Part shown: piece by piece, positions 2,484 through 52,829 of the stretch
Position numbering within the stretch: position 1 is the first letter of the stretch
Layout: each line of letters starts with the position of its first letter
Origin: Streptomyces rimosus
Lineage (GTDB): Bacteria > Actinomycetota > Actinomycetes > Streptomycetales > Streptomycetaceae
DNA length: 64,000 bases
NCBI RefSeq assembly: GCF_008704655.1
Contig: NZ_CP023688.1
Location: forward strand, 2,294,001-2,358,000
Reading direction: 5' to 3'
The notes under the pieces: model-generated
Told to the model about the DNA's origin: nothing
Seen by the model: only the letters and a program-made list of their open reading frames with translations
The model's database searches: none
Program-made: the position numbers and the translations under genes

Positions 2484-3140
2484 GTGATCCACATCAGTGA
2501 GACGCTCATGCTGCAGACGGTCGAGGAGTTCCTGACGGAGGAGGAGATCTCCCGGCTGGTCAAGATCATGGACAGCGAGGCGGCCTGGTGGCGGCCCCGC
2601 CACCAGGCCGAGGTGCTCCCGGCCCCGGCGACCGCACAAGAGGTGCTGGGCGAGGCCACGCTGCGGGCACTGCCCGCCATCCGGCGCAGCATGCCGTCCA
2701 TCGCCGGGTCCGGGCACTGGGGCTACACCGAACTGGCCGTGGGCCAGGGCGTACCGACCCATCTCGACGGGATCAGCAGCCCGCGGACCCCGCCCCGGCG
2801 CATCGGCCGGATCGGCGTGACGATCGCGGACGCGGCCGAAGGCGGCCGCTTCTACATCGAGACCACGTCGGACAGCGCGCCCTGGACCGACACACTGCTG
2901 GGCGCGGCCGACGGGTACGAGCCGGGCACCCCGATGAGCCGCAGCCTGCCGCACGGCCCCGCGGCCCACGAGCAGACGCCGCAATGGCTGAGCGCGCCGC
3001 GCAAGAGCCGGTGGCTGACCGACGCCGGTCCGGGAGTGGCCGTCGCGTACGGCGCCCAGGTCATCCACGGGGTGACGCCGGTGCTCCGCGGCCGGGTGCG
3101 CAAGTTCGTCGCCGACCTCGTGGACACGGCGGCGGCCTGA
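2484..3140 (+). CDS. 2-oxoglutarate/Fe(II)-dependent oxygenase-like protein
   Basis: A 218-residue protein. GTG 2484 is chosen because GAGGAG lies at 2472-2477; the open frame upstream is non-coding in character. It shows the double-stranded beta-helix iron site of the 2OG oxygenase superfamily: an HxD motif in VPTHLDGISS and a distal His/Arg pair in QVIHGVTPVLRGRVRKFVAD. The reaction would couple 2OG decarboxylation to hydroxylation of an unknown substrate in the cytoplasm. It converges on the atropopeptide P450 and is separated from it only by a bidirectional terminator. It could act on the same peptide or be unrelated; the sequence does not decide. Confidence 0.7.
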   Translation: MIHISETLMLQTVEEFLTEEEISRLVKIMDSEAAWWRPRHQAEVLPAPATAQEVLGEATLRALPAIRRSMPSIAGSGHWGYTELAVGQGVPTHLDGISSPRTPPRRIGRIGVTIADAAEGGRFYIETTSDSAPWTDTLLGAADGYEPGTPMSRSLPHGPAAHEQTPQWLSAPRKSRWLTDAGPGVAVAYGAQVIHGVTPVLRGRVRKFVADLVDTAAA

Positions 3141-4269: not shown

Positions 4270-4318
4270 CGGCGGCCTCCGAGAGCCTGGATGAGGGAAC
4301 TACCGGGTCACGTGCCGA

Positions 4319-4399
4319 TCAGTACCAGATGTACCAGGCGTAGGCCTTCAGGCTCTTCTCCGCCTTCATCTTCTTCTTGAGGGAGTTGATGAGCTTCAT
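4319..4399 (-). CDS. Atropopeptide precursor peptide, core AWYIWY (tryptorubin type)
   Basis: A 26-codon gene, ATG at 4399 and TGA at 4319-4321, with a strong GGAGG (4407-4411 on the plus map) seven bases upstream. The leader is short and highly basic, starting MKLINSLKKKMK and continuing to a Lys-Ala-Tyr just before the core. The last six residues are AWYIWY, identical to the hexapeptide backbone of tryptorubin A. No separate protease gene is visible nearby, so leader removal probably uses general proteases. The P450 gene follows 49 bp downstream, giving the minimal precursor plus P450 layout known for atropopeptides. Every codon was read directly, so the call rests on the exact core match and the adjacent P450. 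Confidence 0.95.
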   Translation of the reverse strand: MKLINSLKKKMKAEKSLKAYAWYIWY

Positions 4400-4793
4400 G
4401 ACAGCACCTCCGGGACAGGCGAACCGACTGAACCGAACACCGACTCCGGCGGACCGGGACACGGAAAAACACTGCTCCGCCACTGAATCCGGCTTTCCGC
4501 TTTTCGTCAGGGCAAAGTGAAGCCCAGCGGCGAAAGGTACGTCAATGTGGTCAAGGTCACCGTAAATTCAGGGTATTGGGGGTTTCGCCGCCGAACGGGG
4601 GCGAAGGGCCGGGGTGTACGGAACGCGCGCCCCCGCGTGGGAAATCGCCGCCGCGACCGCCCTCGGAGGCGGATAACGCCACTTGCCCGGCGGTGACTGC
4701 GACCCGCGGGTGCCGCCTTCCACGCTGGTCCGCGACCGGCCCCGGGCCCTCCGCCCGGGGCCGAGGCGTCGACGACGGTGGAGGGGATTTCCG
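4400..4793. promoter_or_regulatory. Divergent control region between the atropopeptide operon and the MFS gene
   Basis: This 394 bp stretch has no gene. On the minus strand two TTGAC motifs lie nine bases apart (4541-4545 and 4550-4554). TTGACG, then TTCACT (4516-4521) at 18-bp spacing, is a weak candidate -35/-10 for the precursor operon. GAGGGG at 4781-4786 is the ribosome-binding site for the rightward MFS gene. Confidence 0.35.
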
Positions 4794-6237
4794 ATGACCG
4801 CTGAGCGTGTGCTCGCGCCGCCCGGGGCGGCGTACCGATGGCGGTGGTGGGCGCTCGCCGCCCTGCTGCTCGCCGAGGCGATGAACCTGCTGGACGCGAC
4901 CATCGTGCAGGTCGCGGCGCCGGCCGTACACGCCGATCTGGGCCGGCCCGGTGTCCGACGTCCAGTGGTTCACGACGGCCTACACCCTGCCGTTCGCGGT
5001 GCTGCTGATCACCGGTGGGCGCCTGGGCGACATCGCCGGGCGGCGTCGGGTGTTCGTCGGCGGCGTCACCGGCTTCCTGTTTGCGTCCGTCGCCTGCGCC
5101 CTGGCGCCCGGCACCAGCGCGCTGATCGCCTTCCGTGTGGCGCAGGGGGCCGCGGCGGCCCTGGTCATTCCGCAGACCATCGGCCTGATCAAAGCGATGT
5201 TCGCCGGTGCGGAACTGGCCCGCGCCCTGGGCGCCATCGGCCCGGTGATGGGGCTCGCCGCCGTCTGCGGGCCGGTGCTCGGCGGCTTCCTCACCCACGC
5301 CGACCTGTTCGGCTCGTCCTGGCGGGCGGCGTTCCTGGTGAACGTCCCCCTGTCGCTGCTCGTCCTCGCCCTGGCACCCAAGCTGGTGGACCACCGCGCC
5401 CCGCGGCGCCCCACCCTCGATCTGACGGGCACCCTGCCGGCCATGGCGGGCGTCGGGCTCATCGTCCATCCGCTGATCGGGGCCGACCTCGCCGCACTGT
5501 CCGGGTGGAACTGGGCCTCCATCGGGGCCGGGCTGATGCTGATGGCCGTCTTCGTACGTCACCAGCGCGGCGCCGTCGCCGCCGGGCGCAGCCCGCTGGT
5601 GGAGCCGAGCCTATTTGCACACCGCGGTTTCCCGGCCGCGCTGGTGGCCTCGGCCTCGTTCTTCGCGGTGACCAACGGCCTGATGATGGTGATCGTGCTC
5701 CAGCTCCAACTGGGCTTGCACGTGGGCGTATTGGCGGCAGGGCTCACACTGGCACCGTGGTCGGCCGGTCTGGCCTTGGCGTCCTGGGCGGCCGGTGCCC
5801 GCCTCGTCCCGCGCTTCGGGCACCGGACGATGCCGCTCGGGCTCGCCGTGCTCCTGGCCGGCGCGCTGGCCGCCATCGCCGTGTACCGCACCGCGGACCC
5901 GACGGCCTACCCCGCACCACTGCTTCCTGCACTCGCGGTCGTCGGCCTGGGAGTCGGCCTCTTCACCCCGGCGTTCTTCACCGTCGCGCTACGGCCGTTG
6001 CGGCCGCAGGAAATCGGCTCGGCCGCCGGGCTGCTGAACGCGGTCCAGCAGCTGGGCGCGACCCTAGGCGTGGCGGTTCTCGGCAGTGTCTACCTCCACG
6101 CCGCCGGGCCCGGCGGCGCCGCGGCCTCGCTGCACGCCGTGCAGCTCGCGTTCTGGGCCGCCGTGGCGCTGACGGTGGTCAGCCTGGTGGCGGCCGGGAT
6201 GATGACCGGCGGGCCGGAGGCGGGAACGGTTCGCTGA
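4794..6237 (+). pseudogene. MFS drug exporter (DHA2/EmrB-like) with a one-base frameshift
   Basis: Translation from ATG 4794 gives the first exporter helix (WALAALLLAEAMNLLDATIVQVAAPAVHADLG) and then loses homology. The family sequence resumes one frame over as VSDVQWFTTAYTLPFAVLLITGGRLGDIAGRRR and runs to the stop at 6237. The junction is CTGGGCCGGCCCGGTGTCC near 4938-4956. Removing one C from GGCCGG restores a continuous DLGGPVSDVQW and a normal length of about 480 residues with 12-14 membrane segments. Either the gene is newly inactive or the base call is wrong. Being divergent from the precursor/P450 operon, it may have exported the atropopeptide. A GTG at about 4951 could restart translation but would lack the first helix. 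Confidence 0.8.
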
Positions 6238-7117: not shown

Positions 7118-8224
7118 ATGTCGTCTCCAGGCACGGTTCCACCAGTATGCGGCGGCGTGACGTTCATGGACTACGGAGTTTCCACCCTCAGGCGGCTGCT
7201 CGGCAGCTCGGGCCTGAACGTCGAGCAGGGCGCGAGGGTTTTGCGCAGGATGCTCTCACCGTGGGGAGAGCGGCGGATAGGGACACGGCCCAACTGGCGT
7301 TCCGATGTCTGCGCCGACGGTTCGCCGATCGAGTTCTCCGCCGCCTTTTCGCGCGAGCGCACCCAGATACGGGTGCTCGTGGAGGCCGTACCGGACCGGC
7401 TGAGCACATCGGCCGCACAGAAATCGGCACTCGGCCTCACCCGCGGGCTGACCGAGGAATTCGGCGCCGTCGACGACCGTCTCGCGGCGGTCCACGACCT
7501 GTTCCTGCCGGACGGCGGCCCGGCCGGATTCGCGATGATGCACGCCGTCGTCTTCTCGCCGGACGGCGACCCCGAGTTCAAGGTCTATCTGAACCCGGAC
7601 GCCGACCGGCGCATGACCGCCGTCGAACGGACCCGCGAGGCACTGGACCGCCTGGGATTCGGCAAGGCGTGGAACGCGATCAGCGAATACGCCCGCCGGG
7701 GATTCGACCTCGACAGGATCGTCTACCTGGGCCTCGATCTGGTGGACGGCCCCCAGTCGCGCGTGAAGGTGTACTTCCGCCATTACGACATTCCCCCGGC
7801 CGAACTGGACGCCCGCATGCGGATATCGCTCCAGCACGAGCCCGGTTTCCTGGAGGACTTCTGCCAGGCGCTGACCGGAAACGGCGGCGAGGCGCGGCCC
7901 CAGCCGCTCGTCAGCAACCTGACCTTCACGGCGGTCGGCGAGCACACACCGGTGTCCGCCACGCTGTACGTCCCGCTGTGGGTGCACGCGGAGAGCGACC
8001 GGACCATACGGGACCGCATCAGCTCCGTCATGGCCCGTATGGGCCTGCCCGCCGGCCGTTACCGGGCGCTGCTGAGCCAGGTGGCGCGGCGCCCGCTGGC
8101 AGGTGGCCGCGGCATCCACACGTACGCGTCGGCGCGGATGCAGCACGGCCGCCCTCGTATGACCACGTACTGGTCCCCGGAACTCTACGACCGGTATCCG
8201 CCCGCCCGTTACCAGCGGGGGTGA
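7118..8224 (+). CDS. Aromatic prenyltransferase, tryptophan dimethylallyltransferase (DMATS/ABBA) family
   Basis: A 368-residue protein. ATG 7118 follows GGGAAAGGGG; the longer upstream frame lacks coding character. Segments such as EFKVYLNP, RVKVYFRHYDIPP, ATLYVPLWVHAE and GIHTYASARMQHGRPRMTTYWSPELY show the alternating Lys-x-Tyr strand motifs of the alpha-beta-beta-alpha barrel DMATS family. In that family Lys, Arg and Tyr bind the diphosphate of dimethylallyl-PP. It would attach a prenyl group to an indole or other aromatic ring in the cytoplasm. It is coupled to the next gene by an overlap. Substrate unknown; free tryptophan or an indole derivative is most likely. Confidence 0.82.
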   Translation: MSSPGTVPPVCGGVTFMDYGVSTLRRLLGSSGLNVEQGARVLRRMLSPWGERRIGTRPNWRSDVCADGSPIEFSAAFSRERTQIRVLVEAVPDRLSTSAAQKSALGLTRGLTEEFGAVDDRLAAVHDLFLPDGGPAGFAMMHAVVFSPDGDPEFKVYLNPDADRRMTAVERTREALDRLGFGKAWNAISEYARRGFDLDRIVYLGLDLVDGPQSRVKVYFRHYDIPPAELDARMRISLQHEPGFLEDFCQALTGNGGEARPQPLVSNLTFTAVGEHTPVSATLYVPLWVHAESDRTIRDRISSVMARMGLPAGRYRALLSQVARRPLAGGRGIHTYASARMQHGRPRMTTYWSPELYDRYPPARYQRG

Positions 8225-9474
8225 CCGCCGTGCCGCGACACGACGTGCTCCGTTCGCTGTTCGACGACGCGCGGGTCCGCCCGGATCTGCTGCGGCGACG
8301 CTCGCCCGTCCGCTGGGGCGCGGTCCCGTCCGACGTCATTCCGCTGACGGCGGCCGAGCCGGATTTCCCGGGGCCCCGAGTGGTCCGGGACGCGGTGGTC
8401 GAGGCGGTCGCCGACGGCTATTTCCCCTATGCGGCACCCGAGGGGTCCGAGGAACTCCGGGAAACCTTCGCGGAAGTGGCCGAGGCCCGCCACGGAATCG
8501 GAAATCACCCCGATCGCGTGGTGCCGGCCCCCGGCACGGCGGCGGCATTGTGGGGCGTGGTCCGCCTGCTCTGCGGAGAGGGTGACGAATGCATCGTGCT
8601 GGACCCGGTGGACCTGCTGTTCGGCCAGGCTGTCGATGCCGTGGGGGCCCGGCGCGTCTACTGCCCGGTGGACAAGAACACCGGGCAACTGGACACGGAC
8701 CGGCTCGCCTCACTGGTGAATGCGCGCACCGCGCTGATCTGCCTGTGCAATCCGCACAATCCCTTGGGCACGGTCTTCGACGAGGCGACGCTCCGGGCGG
8801 TGGAGGAGATAGCCGCCGCCCACCGTGTCCCGATACTTTCCGACGAGGTGTGGAACGAAATCGTGTACCCGCCCGGGAAGCACATCAGCATGGCGCGCCT
8901 GGACACCGGGAACAGCCGGCGCATCTACACGGTGACCGGTCTTTCCAAGACGTTCGCGCTCCCAGGGCTGCGCATGGGCTTTGTCATCGCCCCGACCCCG
9001 GGGGCCGCGGACGCTTTGCGGCTCGCCTTCCAGCGTCTGGGCGCCGCGTACAGCATGACGCCCTGCACCCAGGCCGGTGCCCTGGCCGCCCTGCGCCACG
9101 GCTGGCCCTGGCGCGACGCATTCCTGGAACACCTGCGGGACATGCGGGATTACTGTGTGGAACGGCTGAATGCGATACCGGGCTTCTCCTGCGGTCGCCC
9201 GGACGGTACGTACGTCCTGTTCCCCGATGTGTCGGCGCTCGGGCTGAGCAGCCGGGCGATGGGCGAATTCCTGCTGGCGAAAGCGCGGGTGGCCGTGGTG
9301 CCCGGCACGGCCGAGTGGTTCGGCCCGGCCGCCGAGGGCAATATCCGTATCAGTTACGCCACGTCGCGGGCCGTGCTGGAAGAGGCGCTGCACCGCATAG
9401 CGGGCGCCGTCGCAGAACTCGTACCCGGTGGCCCGGCCGGGCTCCAGGCCACCGGGGCGCCGCAGCGGGCGTGA
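8221..9474 (+). CDS. PLP-dependent class I/II aminotransferase (MalY/PatB-like)
   Basis: A 417-residue fold-type I PLP enzyme. The start GTG 8221 overlaps the prenyltransferase stop (GTGA); GTG 8230 is an alternative. Motifs: cofactor-loop region APGTAAALWGVVRLL, ICLCNPHNPLGTVF, ILSDEVWNEI, and the Schiff-base lysine in VTGLSKTFALPGLRMGF. C-terminal Arg region NIRISYATSR. CNPHNP and the overall layout resemble MalY/PatB C-S lyases as well as aminotransferases, so transamination or beta-elimination are both possible. Tight coupling to the prenyltransferase suggests that both work on one aromatic amino acid. The gene is convergent with the conservon P450, 25 bp away. Confidence 0.8.
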   Translation: MTAVPRHDVLRSLFDDARVRPDLLRRRSPVRWGAVPSDVIPLTAAEPDFPGPRVVRDAVVEAVADGYFPYAAPEGSEELRETFAEVAEARHGIGNHPDRVVPAPGTAAALWGVVRLLCGEGDECIVLDPVDLLFGQAVDAVGARRVYCPVDKNTGQLDTDRLASLVNARTALICLCNPHNPLGTVFDEATLRAVEEIAAAHRVPILSDEVWNEIVYPPGKHISMARLDTGNSRRIYTVTGLSKTFALPGLRMGFVIAPTPGAADALRLAFQRLGAAYSMTPCTQAGALAALRHGWPWRDAFLEHLRDMRDYCVERLNAIPGFSCGRPDGTYVLFPDVSALGLSSRAMGEFLLAKARVAVVPGTAEWFGPAAEGNIRISYATSRAVLEEALHRIAGAVAELVPGGPAGLQATGAPQRA

Positions 9475-20710: not shown

Positions 20711-22111
20711 ATGGGTTCACCGATGACTCTGGCGGCGAAATTGTGGGAAAGCCACGTCGTCAGCTCGCCGCCCGGTGGACCGGACCTCCTGTACATCGAT
20801 CTGCACCTGACCCACGAGGCGACCTCGCCGCAGGCGTTCGACGGTCTGCGGCTGGCCGGGCGGTCCGTACGGCGGCCGGAGCTGACGCTGGCCCTGGAGG
20901 ACCACAACGTGCCGACCAGCCCGCTGGCCGTCGCCGACCCGGTCAGCCGTACGCAGCTGGAGACGCTGCGCCGCAACTGTGAGACGCACGGCATCGAGCT
21001 GTACTCCCTCGGGCACCGCCGGCAGGGCATCGTCCACGTCGTCGGGCCCGAACTCGGTCTGGTGCACCCCGGTATGACCGTGGTGTGCGGTGACAGCCAC
21101 ACCTCGACGCACGGCGCCTTCGGTGCGCTGGCCTTCGGCATCGGCACCAGCGACGTCGAGCATGTGCTCGCCACGCAGTGCCTGGAGCTGCCGCGCCCGA
21201 AGACGATGGCGGTGGACTTCGACGGTGAGCTGCCCCGTGGGGTGGGCGCCAAGGACCTGGTGCTGGCCCTGATCGCGGAGATCGGGCCGAACGGCGCGCA
21301 GGGGCACATGGTCGAGTACCGCGGCGCGGCCGTACGGGGCCTGTCCATGGAGTCCCGGATGACGCTGTGCAACATGAGCATCGAGGCGGGCGCGCGGGCC
21401 GGTCTGGTCGCGCCGGACGCGACGACGCTCGCGTACCTCAGGGGCCGGCCGTACGCGCCGGGTGCCGCCCACTGGGACGCGGCCGCCGCGCACTGGTCGA
21501 CGCTGCACAGTGACCCCGGCGCGCGCTTCGACCGCTCCGTACGGATCGATGTCTCCGCGCTCACCCCGTGGGTGACGTGGGGCACCAACCCGGCGCAGGC
21601 GGCGCCCCTGGCCTCCGAGGTGCCCGCCCCGGACGCCTTCGCCGATCCGCTGGAGCGCGCCTCGGCCCAACGCGCCCTGCGCTACATGGACCTGGCCCCG
21701 GGCACTCCGCTCCGCGACATCCCCATCGACGTCGTCTTCCTCGGCTCGTGCACCAACGGGCGGCTGGAGGACCTGCGGGCCGCGGCCTCCGTGCTCAAGG
21801 GCCGCAGCGTCGCCGACAGCACCCGTCTGCTCGTCGTCCCGGGCTCCATGGAGGTCCGCGCGGAGGCCGAGGCGGAGGGGCTGCACGAGGTCTTCCTGGC
21901 GTCCGGCGCCGAGTGGCGCTCCCCCGGCTGCTCGATGTGCCTGGGCATGAACACCGACCGGCTCGTCGGCACGGTGCGCAGCGCGTCCACGTCCAACCGC
22001 AACTACGAGGGCCGGCAGGGCGCCACCGCGCGCACCCATCTGGTCTCGCCGGAGGTGGCCGCCGCCACGGCGGTCACCGGCCGGCTCGCCGCCCCCGCCG
22101 ACCTGGCATGA
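20711..22111 (+). CDS. leuC: 3-isopropylmalate dehydratase large subunit homologue
   Basis: A 466-residue aconitase-superfamily protein from ATG 20711 with GGAGGAG upstream. It has the three 4Fe-4S cysteines (FLGSCTNGR and [11 protein letters not shown]), [21 protein letters not shown], and full family length. With LeuD it isomerises 2-alkylmalates by dehydration and rehydration. Here it heads an operon with leuD, an aminotransferase and a hydroxylase, inside a hexapeptide NRPS cluster that also contains a LeuA homologue. It is therefore inferred to extend a branched 2-oxo acid by one carbon per cycle to make a homologated leucine-type building block, rather than (or as well as) serving leucine synthesis. 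Confidence 0.9.
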
Positions 22112-22125
22112 GAGGTACCGAGCCC

Positions 22126-22752
22126 GTGGAACCCTTCACCGAGCACACCGGCACGGCGGTGGCCGTGCGCCGCGACGACATCGACACCGACCAGATCCTG
22201 CCCGCGGAGTTCTGCAAGCGGGTGGTCAAGTCCGGTTACGCGGACGCGCTGTTCAAGCGCTGGCGGGAGCGGGGCGACTGCGTCATCGACCGGCCCGAAC
22301 ACCGTGGCGCGACGATCCTGCTGGCCGGCAAGGACTTCGGCATCGGCAGCTCCCGCGAGCACGCCGTCTGGGCCCTGCGCGACGGCGGCTTCCTGGCCGT
22401 GGTGGCCACCGGCTTCGGCGACATCTTCCGGCGCAACGCGCTGAACAACGGGCTGATCCCGGTCGATCTGCCGGCGCCGGTGGTCGAGGAGCTGATGGAC
22501 CGGGTGGAGGACGATCCCGGCTTCCGGATCACCGTGGACCTGCGGGCCTGCCGGCTGCGCTGGGCGGATGGCAGAGCGGACTTCGTGGTCGACGACCGGG
22601 CGCGCCGGATGCTGCTGGAGGGCAAGGACGCCATCGAGCAGACCCTGCTGCGGCAGGACGCCATCGCCGCGTACGAGGCGCGCCGCGCGCCCTGGATGCC
22701 GGCCGTGCCGCGGGGCGCGTTCGACGCCGCGTCCGCGACGGTGGCCCCGTGA
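22126..22752 (+). CDS. leuD: 3-isopropylmalate dehydratase small subunit homologue
   Basis: A 208-residue swivel-domain subunit. GTG 22126 is preferred: AGAGG lies nine bases upstream and the product then begins MEPFTEHTGTAVAVRRDDIDTDQILPAEF, like canonical LeuD. ATG 22108, overlapping the leuC stop, is the alternative. GKDFGIGSSREHAVWAL, the conserved active-site loop, is intact. It pairs with the adjacent LeuC. Confidence 0.9.
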   Translation: MEPFTEHTGTAVAVRRDDIDTDQILPAEFCKRVVKSGYADALFKRWRERGDCVIDRPEHRGATILLAGKDFGIGSSREHAVWALRDGGFLAVVATGFGDIFRRNALNNGLIPVDLPAPVVEELMDRVEDDPGFRITVDLRACRLRWADGRADFVVDDRARRMLLEGKDAIEQTLLRQDAIAAYEARRAPWMPAVPRGAFDAASATVAP

Positions 22753-23963
22753 TGGCCGCCGCCGTCCAGGGCGCGCGCGAGGTGCTCGGGGCCGCGCGGG
22801 TGCGGCAGTTGCCCGGCGGCGGCCTGGCCGGGCTGCTGCGCGACGGCGTACCGCCCGGCACGGTGAACCTCGCGGTGGGCACGCCCGCCTTCCCCGACAC
22901 GCCCCCGGAGCTGGTGGACGCGGCCTGTGCGGCGCTGCGCGCGGGCGTGCACCAGTACCAGGACCCGGCCGGTGTCCCGGCCCTGCGCGAGCGGATCGCC
23001 GCCGGGCTGCCGGCGGCCCCCGACCCGGACACCGAGATCACCGTGACGGTGGGCGGCAGCGAGGGCCTGTGCGTGGCCCTGCTGGCGGCCGTCGATCCCG
23101 GTGACGAGGTGATCGTGCTGGAGCCGTGCTACGAGAACTTCCTCAGCGCGGTGGCGCTGGCGGGCGGCCGGGTGCGCCCCGTACCGCTGCGGGCACCGGA
23201 CTGGAGCCTGGACCCGGCGGAGCTGGCCGCCGCGATGGGCCCGCGGACCCGGGCGATCATCCTCAACAGCCCCAGCAACCCCACCGGGCAGTTGCTCGGC
23301 CACCAGGACCTCGCGGTGATCGCCGAGTTGTGCGAACGGTGGGACGTCACGGTCGTCTCCGACGAGGTGTACGCCGACTACGTCTACGACGGGCGGCAGC
23401 ACTGCTCGGCGGCCGAGGTGCCGGGTCTGGCCGAGCGCTCCATCGTCGTGGGCAGCTTCTCCAAGAGCCATGCGATCAGCGGCTGGCGGCTGGGCTTCCT
23501 GCGGGCCCCGGCGCGGTGGACGGAGCTGCTGCGCCAGATCCACGTCGCCACGACGGCCGGCGCCCCCGCCGCCTTCCAGCACGCCGCGGCCGCCGTCGAC
23601 CTGCACGGCCCCGGCCGGCAGCAGCGGTCGGCGGCCATGGCCGCACGGCGCGACAGCGCGGTGGCGCTGCTGCGCGACGCCGGTTTCCACTGCGCCGCAC
23701 CCGCCGGCGGCTGTTACGTCCTGGCGGGCATCGACGGCCTGACCGACGAGCCGAGCCCGGCCTTCGTCCGCACCCTGCTCCAGGAGGCCGGGGTGCTGCT
23801 GGCCCCCGCCACCTCGTTCTTCGCCGACCCGCGGCGCGGTGAGCGGCAGGTACGGGTGGCGTTCAACCGGCCGGCCGAGACCCTCGACACCGCCCGGCGG
23901 CGCCTGCTCGCCCGTACGCGCGCCGGCCTCCCGCACCGCATTCAGGAAGGTGAACGAACGTGA
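22752..23963 (+). CDS. PLP-dependent class I/II aminotransferase
   Basis: A 403-residue fold-type I enzyme. ATG 22752 overlaps the leuD stop (TGATG); GTG 22749 is possible. Motifs: TVGGSEGLCVALLA (cofactor phosphate region), ILNSPSNPTGQLL, VVSDEVYADYVYDG, Schiff-base Lys in SFSKSHAISGWRLGF, and RVAFNRPAE for the carboxylate Arg. Its position directly after leuCD suggests that it transaminates the chain-extended 2-oxo acid to the amino acid loaded by the NRPS. A role with the hydroxylase substrate is less likely. Confidence 0.82.
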   Translation: MAAAVQGAREVLGAARVRQLPGGGLAGLLRDGVPPGTVNLAVGTPAFPDTPPELVDAACAALRAGVHQYQDPAGVPALRERIAAGLPAAPDPDTEITVTVGGSEGLCVALLAAVDPGDEVIVLEPCYENFLSAVALAGGRVRPVPLRAPDWSLDPAELAAAMGPRTRAIILNSPSNPTGQLLGHQDLAVIAELCERWDVTVVSDEVYADYVYDGRQHCSAAEVPGLAERSIVVGSFSKSHAISGWRLGFLRAPARWTELLRQIHVATTAGAPAAFQHAAAAVDLHGPGRQQRSAAMAARRDSAVALLRDAGFHCAAPAGGCYVLAGIDGLTDEPSPAFVRTLLQEAGVLLAPATSFFADPRRGERQVRVAFNRPAETLDTARRRLLARTRAGLPHRIQEGERT

Positions 23964-24988
23964 CAAGCACGATGGATCTGGTGACCGGGCCCCGGCACGG
24001 CGGCCTGGTGCTCGGTATCGAGGCCGGCTCCCCGGGGGCCGCGCTGACCGAGGTGGGGGCGCGGCACGGCGAGCGCATCCGCGAGGGTGTGATCGAGCAC
24101 GGCGCCGCCCTGCTCAGCGGGTTCTCCTGGGCCGACTGGCCGGAGCTGGACGCCTTCGTCAACAGCGTCGTCGGCAGACCGCTGGACTACACCGAGCGCT
24201 CGTCACCGCGTACGGAGCTGCACCCCGGGGTGTTCACCGCCACCGACCACCCGCCGACCGAGGAGATCTTCCTCCACACCGAGCAGTCCTACAACCTCAA
24301 CGTCCCGCGCCATCTGTTCTTCTTCTGCCGCCGGGGGGCGCCCGAGGGCGGGGCCAACACGCTCGCCGACTGCCGGGCCCTGTACGACGCGCTGCCGCGC
24401 ACCATCGCCGACCGCTTCGACGAGGAGGGCTACCTGCTGGTGCGCAACTTCCTCCCGGGGCTCGGCCTGTCCTGGCAGGACGCGTTCGGTACGAAGGACC
24501 GTGCGGAGGTGCAGGCGTACTGCGACGCCAACGCCATCGAGGCCGAGTGGGTCGACGAGGACCATCTGCGCACCCGGCAGCGGCGCTGGGCGGTGGCCAC
24601 GCACCCGGTGACCGGCCGGCGCTCGTGGTTCAACCACATGACGTTCTTCCACGCGCGCACGCTGCGCCCCGAGGTGGGCGAGTTCCTGCTGGAGGAGTAC
24701 GGCCCCTGGGGCATGCCGACCAACACCTTCCACGCGGACGGTTCGCAGATCCCCGACGAGGTGGTGGCCGGTCTCCAGCAGGCGTACCGGGACCACGCGA
24801 TCGAGGTGACCGCCCGTACCGGCGAGGTGCTGATCGTGGACAACCTCGCGGTGGCGCACGGCAGGCTGCCGTTCGTACCGCCCCGTGAGCTGTTCGTGAG
24901 CATGTCGGACGCGCTGCCGTGGTCGGCGCTGCGTCCGGTGGAGCGGACCTCCGCCCCCGCGGGCGGGGTCGCGGCGCCGGCCGGATGA
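23960..24988 (+). CDS. TauD/SyrP-like Fe(II)/2-oxoglutarate hydroxylase with HxE metal site
   Basis: A 342-residue protein. GTG 23960 overlaps the previous stop and is preceded by AGGAAGG. The metal-binding facial triad is HTE in IFLHTEQSYN (Glu in place of Asp) and the distal His in DNLAVAHGRLPF. Other family marks are GAPEGGANTLADCRALYDAL and WFNHMTFFH. HxE is the form seen in SyrP-type beta-hydroxylases, which act on amino acids tethered to NRPS carrier proteins. In this cluster the best-fitting substrate is the residue of module 5, whose specificity code looks Glu/Gln-like, giving a 3-hydroxyglutamate-type unit. That substrate is inferred. Confidence 0.82.
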   Translation: MTSTMDLVTGPRHGGLVLGIEAGSPGAALTEVGARHGERIREGVIEHGAALLSGFSWADWPELDAFVNSVVGRPLDYTERSSPRTELHPGVFTATDHPPTEEIFLHTEQSYNLNVPRHLFFFCRRGAPEGGANTLADCRALYDALPRTIADRFDEEGYLLVRNFLPGLGLSWQDAFGTKDRAEVQAYCDANAIEAEWVDEDHLRTRQRRWAVATHPVTGRRSWFNHMTFFHARTLRPEVGEFLLEEYGPWGMPTNTFHADGSQIPDEVVAGLQQAYRDHAIEVTARTGEVLIVDNLAVAHGRLPFVPPRELFVSMSDALPWSALRPVERTSAPAGGVAAPAG

Positions 24989-26253
24989 GCACCGGCGCGG
25001 ACCTGGCCGCCGCGCGTCCGGCCCCGCCGCCCCGCCCGCTCTCCCGCAACCGGGAGTACAACCTGCTGTGGAGCGCCAACATGGTCTCCCAGCTGGGCGC
25101 CCAGGGCACGTTGATCGCCTACCCGATGCTGGTCCTGGCGCTGGGCGGCTCGGCCCTCCAGGCGTCGCTGGTGGAGTTCGCCATCGGTACTTCGCGAGCG
25201 CTGGCCGCGGTGCCGGCCGGGGCCCTTGCGGACCGCTGGAACCGTAAGACGGTGCTGCTGGCCGCCGAGCTGGGCCGGGCGGTGGCCCTCGGGCTGCTCG
25301 CCCTGACGGTCGCGTTCGGGTCGGGCGGCTTCGGGGCGATCCTGGCCGTGGCGGTGGTCGAGGGAGTGTGTACGGCGCTGTTCACCACCACCGACCAGGC
25401 ACTGCTGCCCGGTGTGGTGCCGCGCTCGCAGCTGGGCACGGCGGTGGCCCGCAACACCGCCCGCTACCACCTCGCCACGGTGGTCGGTCCGGGCCTCGGC
25501 GGCGTCCTGTACGGGGTGCAGCGGCTGCTGCCGTTCGTGGCCCAGTCGGTGGCCTCGCTGCTGTCCTTCGTGACGCTGCTGTTCCTGCGGGTGCCGCCGC
25601 GGCCGTCCGGCGAGCCGGAGGCGCGCGAGGGAATGGCGGGCGCGATGCGCTCGGGGCTGCGGTGGCTGGCCGCCAACCGGCCGGTGCGCACCACGGTGCT
25701 GGTCGCCACGGTCTTCAACCTGGCCTTCAGCGGGATGCTGCTGGTGGTCGTGGTGATGGCGCAGCAGGCCGGGCGCCCGGCCGGTGAGATCGGCGCGATC
25801 GGCGCGCTGCTCGGGGCCGGCGGGGTGGTGGGCGCGGTCCTGGCGCCCCGGCTGCGGCACCTGCTCACGCCGTACGCCGCCCTGATGCTGCTGACGTGGG
25901 GCGCGGCGGCGCTGGTGCCGCTGCTGGCGGTGGTGCCGCTGGGGTACGCGAGCGGGCTGGTGCTGGCGGGTGTCGCCCTGCTGGCGCCCACCGCGAGCGC
26001 GATCGTGACGACGTACCAGATGCTCGTCACGCCCGACCGGATGCGCGGGCGGCTGGCCGGGGTGATCGGCATCTCCATGAGCGCGGCCTCCGCGCTGGGG
26101 CCGCTGATCGGCGGTGTGCTGCTGGAGACGGCGGGCGGCACGGCCACCGTCCTGGTGTGCACGGCGGTGTTCGGGGTCCTCGCGCTGGTGGTGTCCTGCG
26201 CGCCGGCCGTACGGACCTTCCCGCGGCCGAAGGAGCTGGAGGCGGCCGAGTAG
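24985..26253 (+). CDS. MFS exporter
   Basis: A 422-residue protein. ATG 24985 overlaps the hydroxylase stop as ATGA. It has about 12 membrane segments, the loop-2/3 motif GALADRWNRKTVLLAAELGRA, and NTARYHLATVVGPGLGG, as in enterobactin-exporter-like (EntS/MFS_3) proteins. As last gene of the leuCD operon, it probably exports the peptide product. Confidence 0.85.
   Translation: MSTGADLAAARPAPPPRPLSRNREYNLLWSANMVSQLGAQGTLIAYPMLVLALGGSALQASLVEFAIGTSRALAAVPAGALADRWNRKTVLLAAELGRAVALGLLALTVAFGSGGFGAILAVAVVEGVCTALFTTTDQALLPGVVPRSQLGTAVARNTARYHLATVVGPGLGGVLYGVQRLLPFVAQSVASLLSFVTLLFLRVPPRPSGEPEAREGMAGAMRSGLRWLAANRPVRTTVLVATVFNLAFSGMLLVVVVMAQQAGRPAGEIGAIGALLGAGGVVGAVLAPRLRHLLTPYAALMLLTWGAAALVPLLAVVPLGYASGLVLAGVALLAPTASAIVTTYQMLVTPDRMRGRLAGVIGISMSAASALGPLIGGVLLETAGGTATVLVCTAVFGVLALVVSCAPAVRTFPRPKELEAAE

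Positions 26254-40319: not shown

Positions 40320-52829
<12,510 letters not shown>

Follow-up and report, generated by a model that had tools for sequence, protein, structure and literature searches.

Streptomyces rimosus carries what we consider, with a probability of about 85%, to be a minimal two-gene atropopeptide cluster, in which a cytochrome P450 is predicted to cross-link the sequence AWYIWY at the end of the adjacent precursor and a host protease likely frees tryptorubin A together with its alanine-less form, tryptorubin B. The cluster lies within the window, that is, the whole stretch of 64,000 nucleotides analyzed here (positions 2,294,001 to 2,358,000 of contig NZ_CP023688.1), and all coordinates below are those of the window. 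The locus is not novel: it is an ordinary further member of a two-gene RiPP family that is already published, and its core is known from nature. In PMC11450843, 683 atropopeptide clusters, the KSLK motif and the recurrence of the tryptorubin core are already reported, and the locus probably belongs to that set; no paper naming it was found in the open-licence literature.

The precursor gene is found at 4319 to 4399 on the minus strand and consists of 26 codons followed by TGA. Its translation, MKLINSLKKKMKAEKSLKAYAWYIWY, comprises a leader (residues 1 to 20) with KSLK at residues 15 to 18, and the core AWYIWY at residues 21 to 26. A GGAGG ribosome-binding site is located at 4407 to 4411 on the same strand, 7 nt ahead of the ATG, and is kept in four related loci (L010, L011, L039, and L040). 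The initial annotation had described a 26-codon reading frame with a GGAGG site and an AWYIWY end, and both the translation and the site agree with it. A loose core pattern, W..[WY] with zero to two further residues before the stop, occurs at 9 of the 1355 stop codons in the six frames of the window, yet this precursor also matches the NCBIfam model NF038372 ("tryptorubin family RiPP precursor") over its full length, with residues 1 to 26 aligned to positions 1 to 26 of the curated model and a score of 55.8 bits versus a cut-off of 33 (E 4e-15). We saw no difference from the model that matters. The precursor is therefore more than a chance occurrence, and relatives also have theirs upstream of the P450.

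Atropopeptides are defined in PMC11450843 by a KSLK motif and an xWxxxx core in a precursor of 10 to 40 amino acids. The peptide encoded here has a leader motif of this type, a tryptophan at core position 2, a length of 26 amino acids and a stop codon at the end of the core, in addition to its match to the curated precursor model. The second tryptophan, at core position 5, also places it in the bitryptides, the subfamily that PMC11450843 defines by an xWxxWx core. It is not a biarylitide; these are described in PMC13417212 as having a five-residue precursor encoded by an 18-bp gene, and the precursor here has 26 residues.

The P450 gene (3214 to 4269, minus strand) encodes an atropopeptide-modifying enzyme of 351 amino acids, with the heme loop FGHANERCWG and an ExxR motif at E224-R227. 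It starts 49 bp downstream of the precursor gene, as initially annotated, and the gap (4270 to 4318) contains its own GGAGG site at 4276 to 4280 on the minus strand, 6 nt ahead of the ATG, which is kept in the same four loci. Among the matches listed, the closest P450 was P0002 (98%), labelled Streptomyces griseoflavus and Streptomyces rimosus. None of the NCBIfam P450 models came near its cut-off with this protein, the best reaching 66 bits of 525. The enzyme is short for a P450, and internal shortening was considered and rejected, since the 120 listed of 446 homologues span 343 to 386 amino acids; the shortness is thus a family trait. The G+C content of the gene matches that of the window (0.728 versus 0.730), so there is no sign of recent import of the P450. 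In the I-helix region (VCFTVST), C195, F196, and T197 are invariant in 37 rows, and by eye the phenylalanine seems to replace the acid of the acid-threonine pair found in most P450s. To judge from the residues, this replacement might fit a cross-linking rather than a hydroxylating enzyme.

The two genes occur together across the genus. In a set of 295 genomes, one per species, the P450 had matches at E <= 1e-20 in 33 genomes, 30 of them full length at 62 to 100% identity. NF038372 found precursors in 30 genomes, one in each, with the window's own genome counted; 29 of these matches exceeded the cut-off of the model, and the one in G276 fell below it. These 30 genomes are exactly those in which the P450 match is full length and at least 62% identical, and the other 265 have neither. 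The three remaining P450-positive genomes, two with C-terminal pieces (G204 and G253) and one with a match at 41% identity (G241), had no precursor match, and none was found in 14 control genomes. A second P450 copy, 39% identical, is present in G166. In the 30 loci, the distance from the end of the precursor frame to the aligned start of the P450 was 49 to 183 bp. That a P450 of this family adjoins the precursor is given by this 30/30 co-occurrence and by the grouping of the enzyme described below, rather than by comparison with the published reference P450 for tryptorubin, WP_007820080.1. Together with the match to NF038372, they bear out the original reading of the locus as an atropopeptide precursor with a tryptorubin A core next to its P450.

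A wider sample of 110 P450 loci was drawn from two collections (30 and 80), with a few species present twice. In 109 of the 110, the P450 is preceded by a short reading frame that closes with a W..[WY]-type core; the odd one out is L110, where the match is partial. Five frames (L041, L058, L092, L103, and L104) were found by the core pattern alone, their leader motif departing from the search motif, and the list of precursor frames contains an additional, spurious second one for L077. In Xanthomonas sp. GPE 39 (L114), two precursor-like frames, ending in SWPHWY and AWEGYISY, precede a single P450; paired precursors in atropopeptide clusters are mentioned in PMC11450843.

Among close relatives, the precursor gene is identical in L010, L011, and L039. 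Compared with L040, it differs by three synonymous and two amino-acid-changing codons, the latter pair being confined to the leader. L012, L013, L041, and L048 differ by five to seven amino acid changes, every one of them in the leader and, in L041, one of them inside the motif, giving KNLK. Across these eight relatives, the AWYIWY core thus stays constant and the leader drifts. The P450s encoded in L010 and L039 are the same, and these two loci probably represent one species; within the S. rimosus locus L039, nine further compared genes are kept at 88 to 96% protein identity.

Many clusters of this kind are silent in culture, and on that general ground the precursor and P450 could be present here in a degenerate, unexpressed or inactive form. 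Both frames are open, however, four relatives retain the ribosome-binding sites and all eight that were compared have an unaltered core, which makes a dead or silent locus scarcely credible.

The initial annotation had proposed the phylogeny of the P450 as a check, and the window P450 indeed groups with enzymes that stand beside KSLK/xWxxW precursors. The tree was built from 94 distinct proteins, collapsed from 108 (L095 is represented by L038, and L039 by L010), without L070, which is interrupted by a stop codon within its aligned part, and the partial L110. The window P450 (L009) forms a subgroup with L010, L011, and L040 at a support of 100/99. The next group out adds L012, L013, L041, and L048, and all eight of its rows have the AWYIWY core; its support of 92/82 is below the mark that the tool sets for strong. 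Over the whole tree, AWYIWY is found in 26 of the 94 rows. These are scattered, so that the tree needs 12 changes of label, and the strongly supported branches alone force at least 11, with gains and losses counted alike. A split of tryptorubin-core precursors and P450s over several clusters is also in print (PMC11450843).

The P450 of another AWYIWY locus, L095 from Streptomyces sp. SPB074, which we take to be a tryptorubin producer, shares about 61% identity with the window P450. Over the compared stretch the L095 P450 equals that of L038, and L038 and L094 group together, remote from the group of the window. This distance counts in favor of a variant of our reading, in which the cluster is of the same kind and its P450 bridges AWYIWY differently, by a single Trp-Trp bond or through other atoms, yielding an isomer of tryptorubin. 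PMC12352619 and PMC11450843 lend it some further weight, as they describe bridge patterns that vary with the P450 on related cores and a single P450 that can yield two. Against it, PMC11450843 reports that the jum P450 is 59% identical to the amyxirubin P450, yet gives an identical product, and that LauB1 yielded tryptorubin B. We therefore regard a tryptorubin isomer as unlikely. That the P450 of the S. rimosus group, as a lineage distinct from the SPB074-type group, folds AWYIWY into a differently bridged shape is likewise doubtful; if true, one peptide sequence would lead to different three-dimensional products according to the lineage of the enzyme.

By analogy with known clusters, tryptorubin A/B is the most likely product. 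The tryptorubin A/B cluster (trp/try) has the same AWYIWY core, the same KSLK leader motif and the same order of a precursor followed by one P450, although its leader differs at several positions and the product here is a prediction from genes. On the model of published relatives, the basic, KSLK-containing leader would dock the precursor on the P450, which would join aromatic side chains to one another through biaryl and carbon-nitrogen bridges and would link the backbone through one carbon-nitrogen bridge; the leader would then be removed by an enzyme encoded elsewhere, likely a general host protease. Members of the family are characterized by such side-chain and backbone cross-links in a single atropisomeric form. 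For the relatives, PMC11450843 and PMC12352619 describe a leader that recruits the P450, KSLK as the proposed anchor, and C-C and C-N bridges added to the core by the P450. According to PMC11450843, a general protease is believed to release the hexapeptide, and another enzyme may trim the alanine; tryptorubin B is the pentapeptide WYIWY, which arises by loss of the N-terminal alanine (PMC11450843 and PMC12352619). The scan of neighboring genes named no protease family.

The lau cluster of Streptomyces laurentii, which makes laurentirubin B, or tryptorubin B without its second P450, is similar in its WYIWY core region and its family P450. When LauA (WYIWY) was coexpressed with LauB1 as the only P450, tryptorubin B was obtained (PMC11450843 and PMC12352619). 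Unlike the window, lau carries a second P450, which adds an aryl ether (PMC11450843). No second P450 stands beside the family P450 here: the next gene downstream is the convergent gene at 2484 to 3140, which has no Pfam match, and the other P450 (9500 to 10966) is 5 kb off, beside nucleotide-binding and histidine-kinase-type genes. The varsorubin, scabrirubin, and amyxirubin clusters belong to the same family by its published definition, but the cores given for them are different (SWYQWL and TWFIWYS), as are some of the bridge patterns (PMC11450843).

Against tryptorubin as the product, the sequence of a core does not fix what is made from it: with the LauA core, ScaB forms no more than one bridge (PMC12352619), and from one core SvaB gives two bridge patterns that differ (PMC11450843). 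The 61% identity to the L095 P450, the distance from its group in the tree, the 92/82 support and the low NCBIfam P450 scores also count against our reading. Varsorubin B1 is reported in PMC11450843 with three bonds, a loss of four hydrogens and an observed value of 791.3540, compared with 791.3511 calculated for WYQWL -4H. Three cross-links would thus cost four hydrogens by this precedent and not six, and a tryptorubin-type product is therefore expected at m/z 897.393 (AWYIWY) and 826.356 (WYIWY), both calculated for -4H.

We also evaluated whether the cluster extends beyond these two genes. At 2484 to 3140 on the plus strand, convergent with the P450 gene, lies a gene for a protein of 218 amino acids in which an HxD...H...R pattern like that of 2-oxoglutarate oxygenases can be recognized by eye. 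At E 0.001, neither Pfam nor NCBIfam gave a match for it, and its homologues outside the S. rimosus group are 36 to 64% identical; the sequence suggests a 2-oxoglutarate-oxygenase-like family without a name in these databases. On the other side, the Pfam/NCBIfam scan found a DMATS-family aromatic prenyltransferase (7118 to 8224, plus strand) and, overlapping it, a PatB-like PLP enzyme, either a C-S lyase or an aminotransferase (8221 to 9474, plus strand). For this pair, PF11991 and PF00155 were over their cut-offs, and TIGR03429 and TIGR04350 were below theirs.

These enzymes could tailor the peptide further, for example by prenylating its tryptophan. All three genes are no further than about 5 kb from the precursor, and G048 (L010/L121), G036 (L011/L120), and L039 retain them; the oxygenase-like gene adjoins the P450 in L040 as well as in L010, L011, and L039. 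DMATS enzymes act on tryptophan. Tailoring genes are described for a subset of atropopeptide clusters in PMC11450843. However, the three genes are on the strand opposite to the precursor and P450, and neither type of enzyme tracks the P450 in the 295 genomes: oxygenase-like homologues were found in 37, namely, 6 of the 30 P450-positive versus 31 of the 265 others (Fisher p 0.24), and any DMATS in 7/30 versus 54/265 (Fisher p 0.64). Outside the S. rimosus group, G019, G093, and G247 have both the P450 and an oxygenase-like homologue, but the two are separated by millions of bases. The DMATS/PatB pair dissociates in both directions, as it is present without the P450 in G086, G090, and G263 (loci L122 to L124), and the 17-kb locus L040 has the precursor and P450 without the pair. 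A larger, tailored cluster was rejected on these grounds and is very improbable; the oxygenase-like gene and the DMATS/PatB pair, all judged to lie outside the cluster, are probably bystanders. Thus, since the neighboring enzymes do not follow the P450 across genomes, the minimal unit is the precursor and the P450.

Other features of the neighborhood are noted here in their own right. The recurrence of the DMATS/PatB pair in L122 to L124 suggests that the two genes form a separate small pathway, perhaps one leading to a prenylated tryptophan or indole product. An MFS transporter gene occupies 4794 to 6237 on the plus strand; its main frame (4951 to 6237, 428 amino acids) starts late, and an ATG further upstream, at 4794, is out of frame with it. 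The counterpart in L039 has a longer open frame of 480 amino acids, and the break reflects either a true frameshift or an error in the sequence. Further away, an NRPS region (20723 to 26253 and 33882 to 61958, plus strand) contains a thioesterase, a tryptophan-halogenase family gene, a flavin reductase and, at 40320 to 52829, a reading frame of 4169 amino acids. Ahead of it lie genes for the two subunits, large and small, of an aconitase-like enzyme, for an aminotransferase, for a TauD-like dioxygenase and for an MFS protein, which look as if they serve to make an unusual amino acid.

One expectation of the initial annotation does not hold, and another has been overtaken. It held that a gene this small would be missed by automatic annotation; the NCBI model NF038372 exists, and records with a "tryptorubin family RiPP precursor CDS" are mentioned in PMC11450843. 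It also offered the Lys-rich leader as a search template, which is already in print as the KSLK motif (PMC11450843). In practice, the locus is a warning that genes of this kind, with as few as 26 codons, are already within reach of the NCBI models. The published atropopeptide family gains one firm instance. The occurrence of AWYIWY with P450s on many branches is, moreover, a natural experiment, and a comparison of the products would show whether the core or the enzyme sets the bridging.
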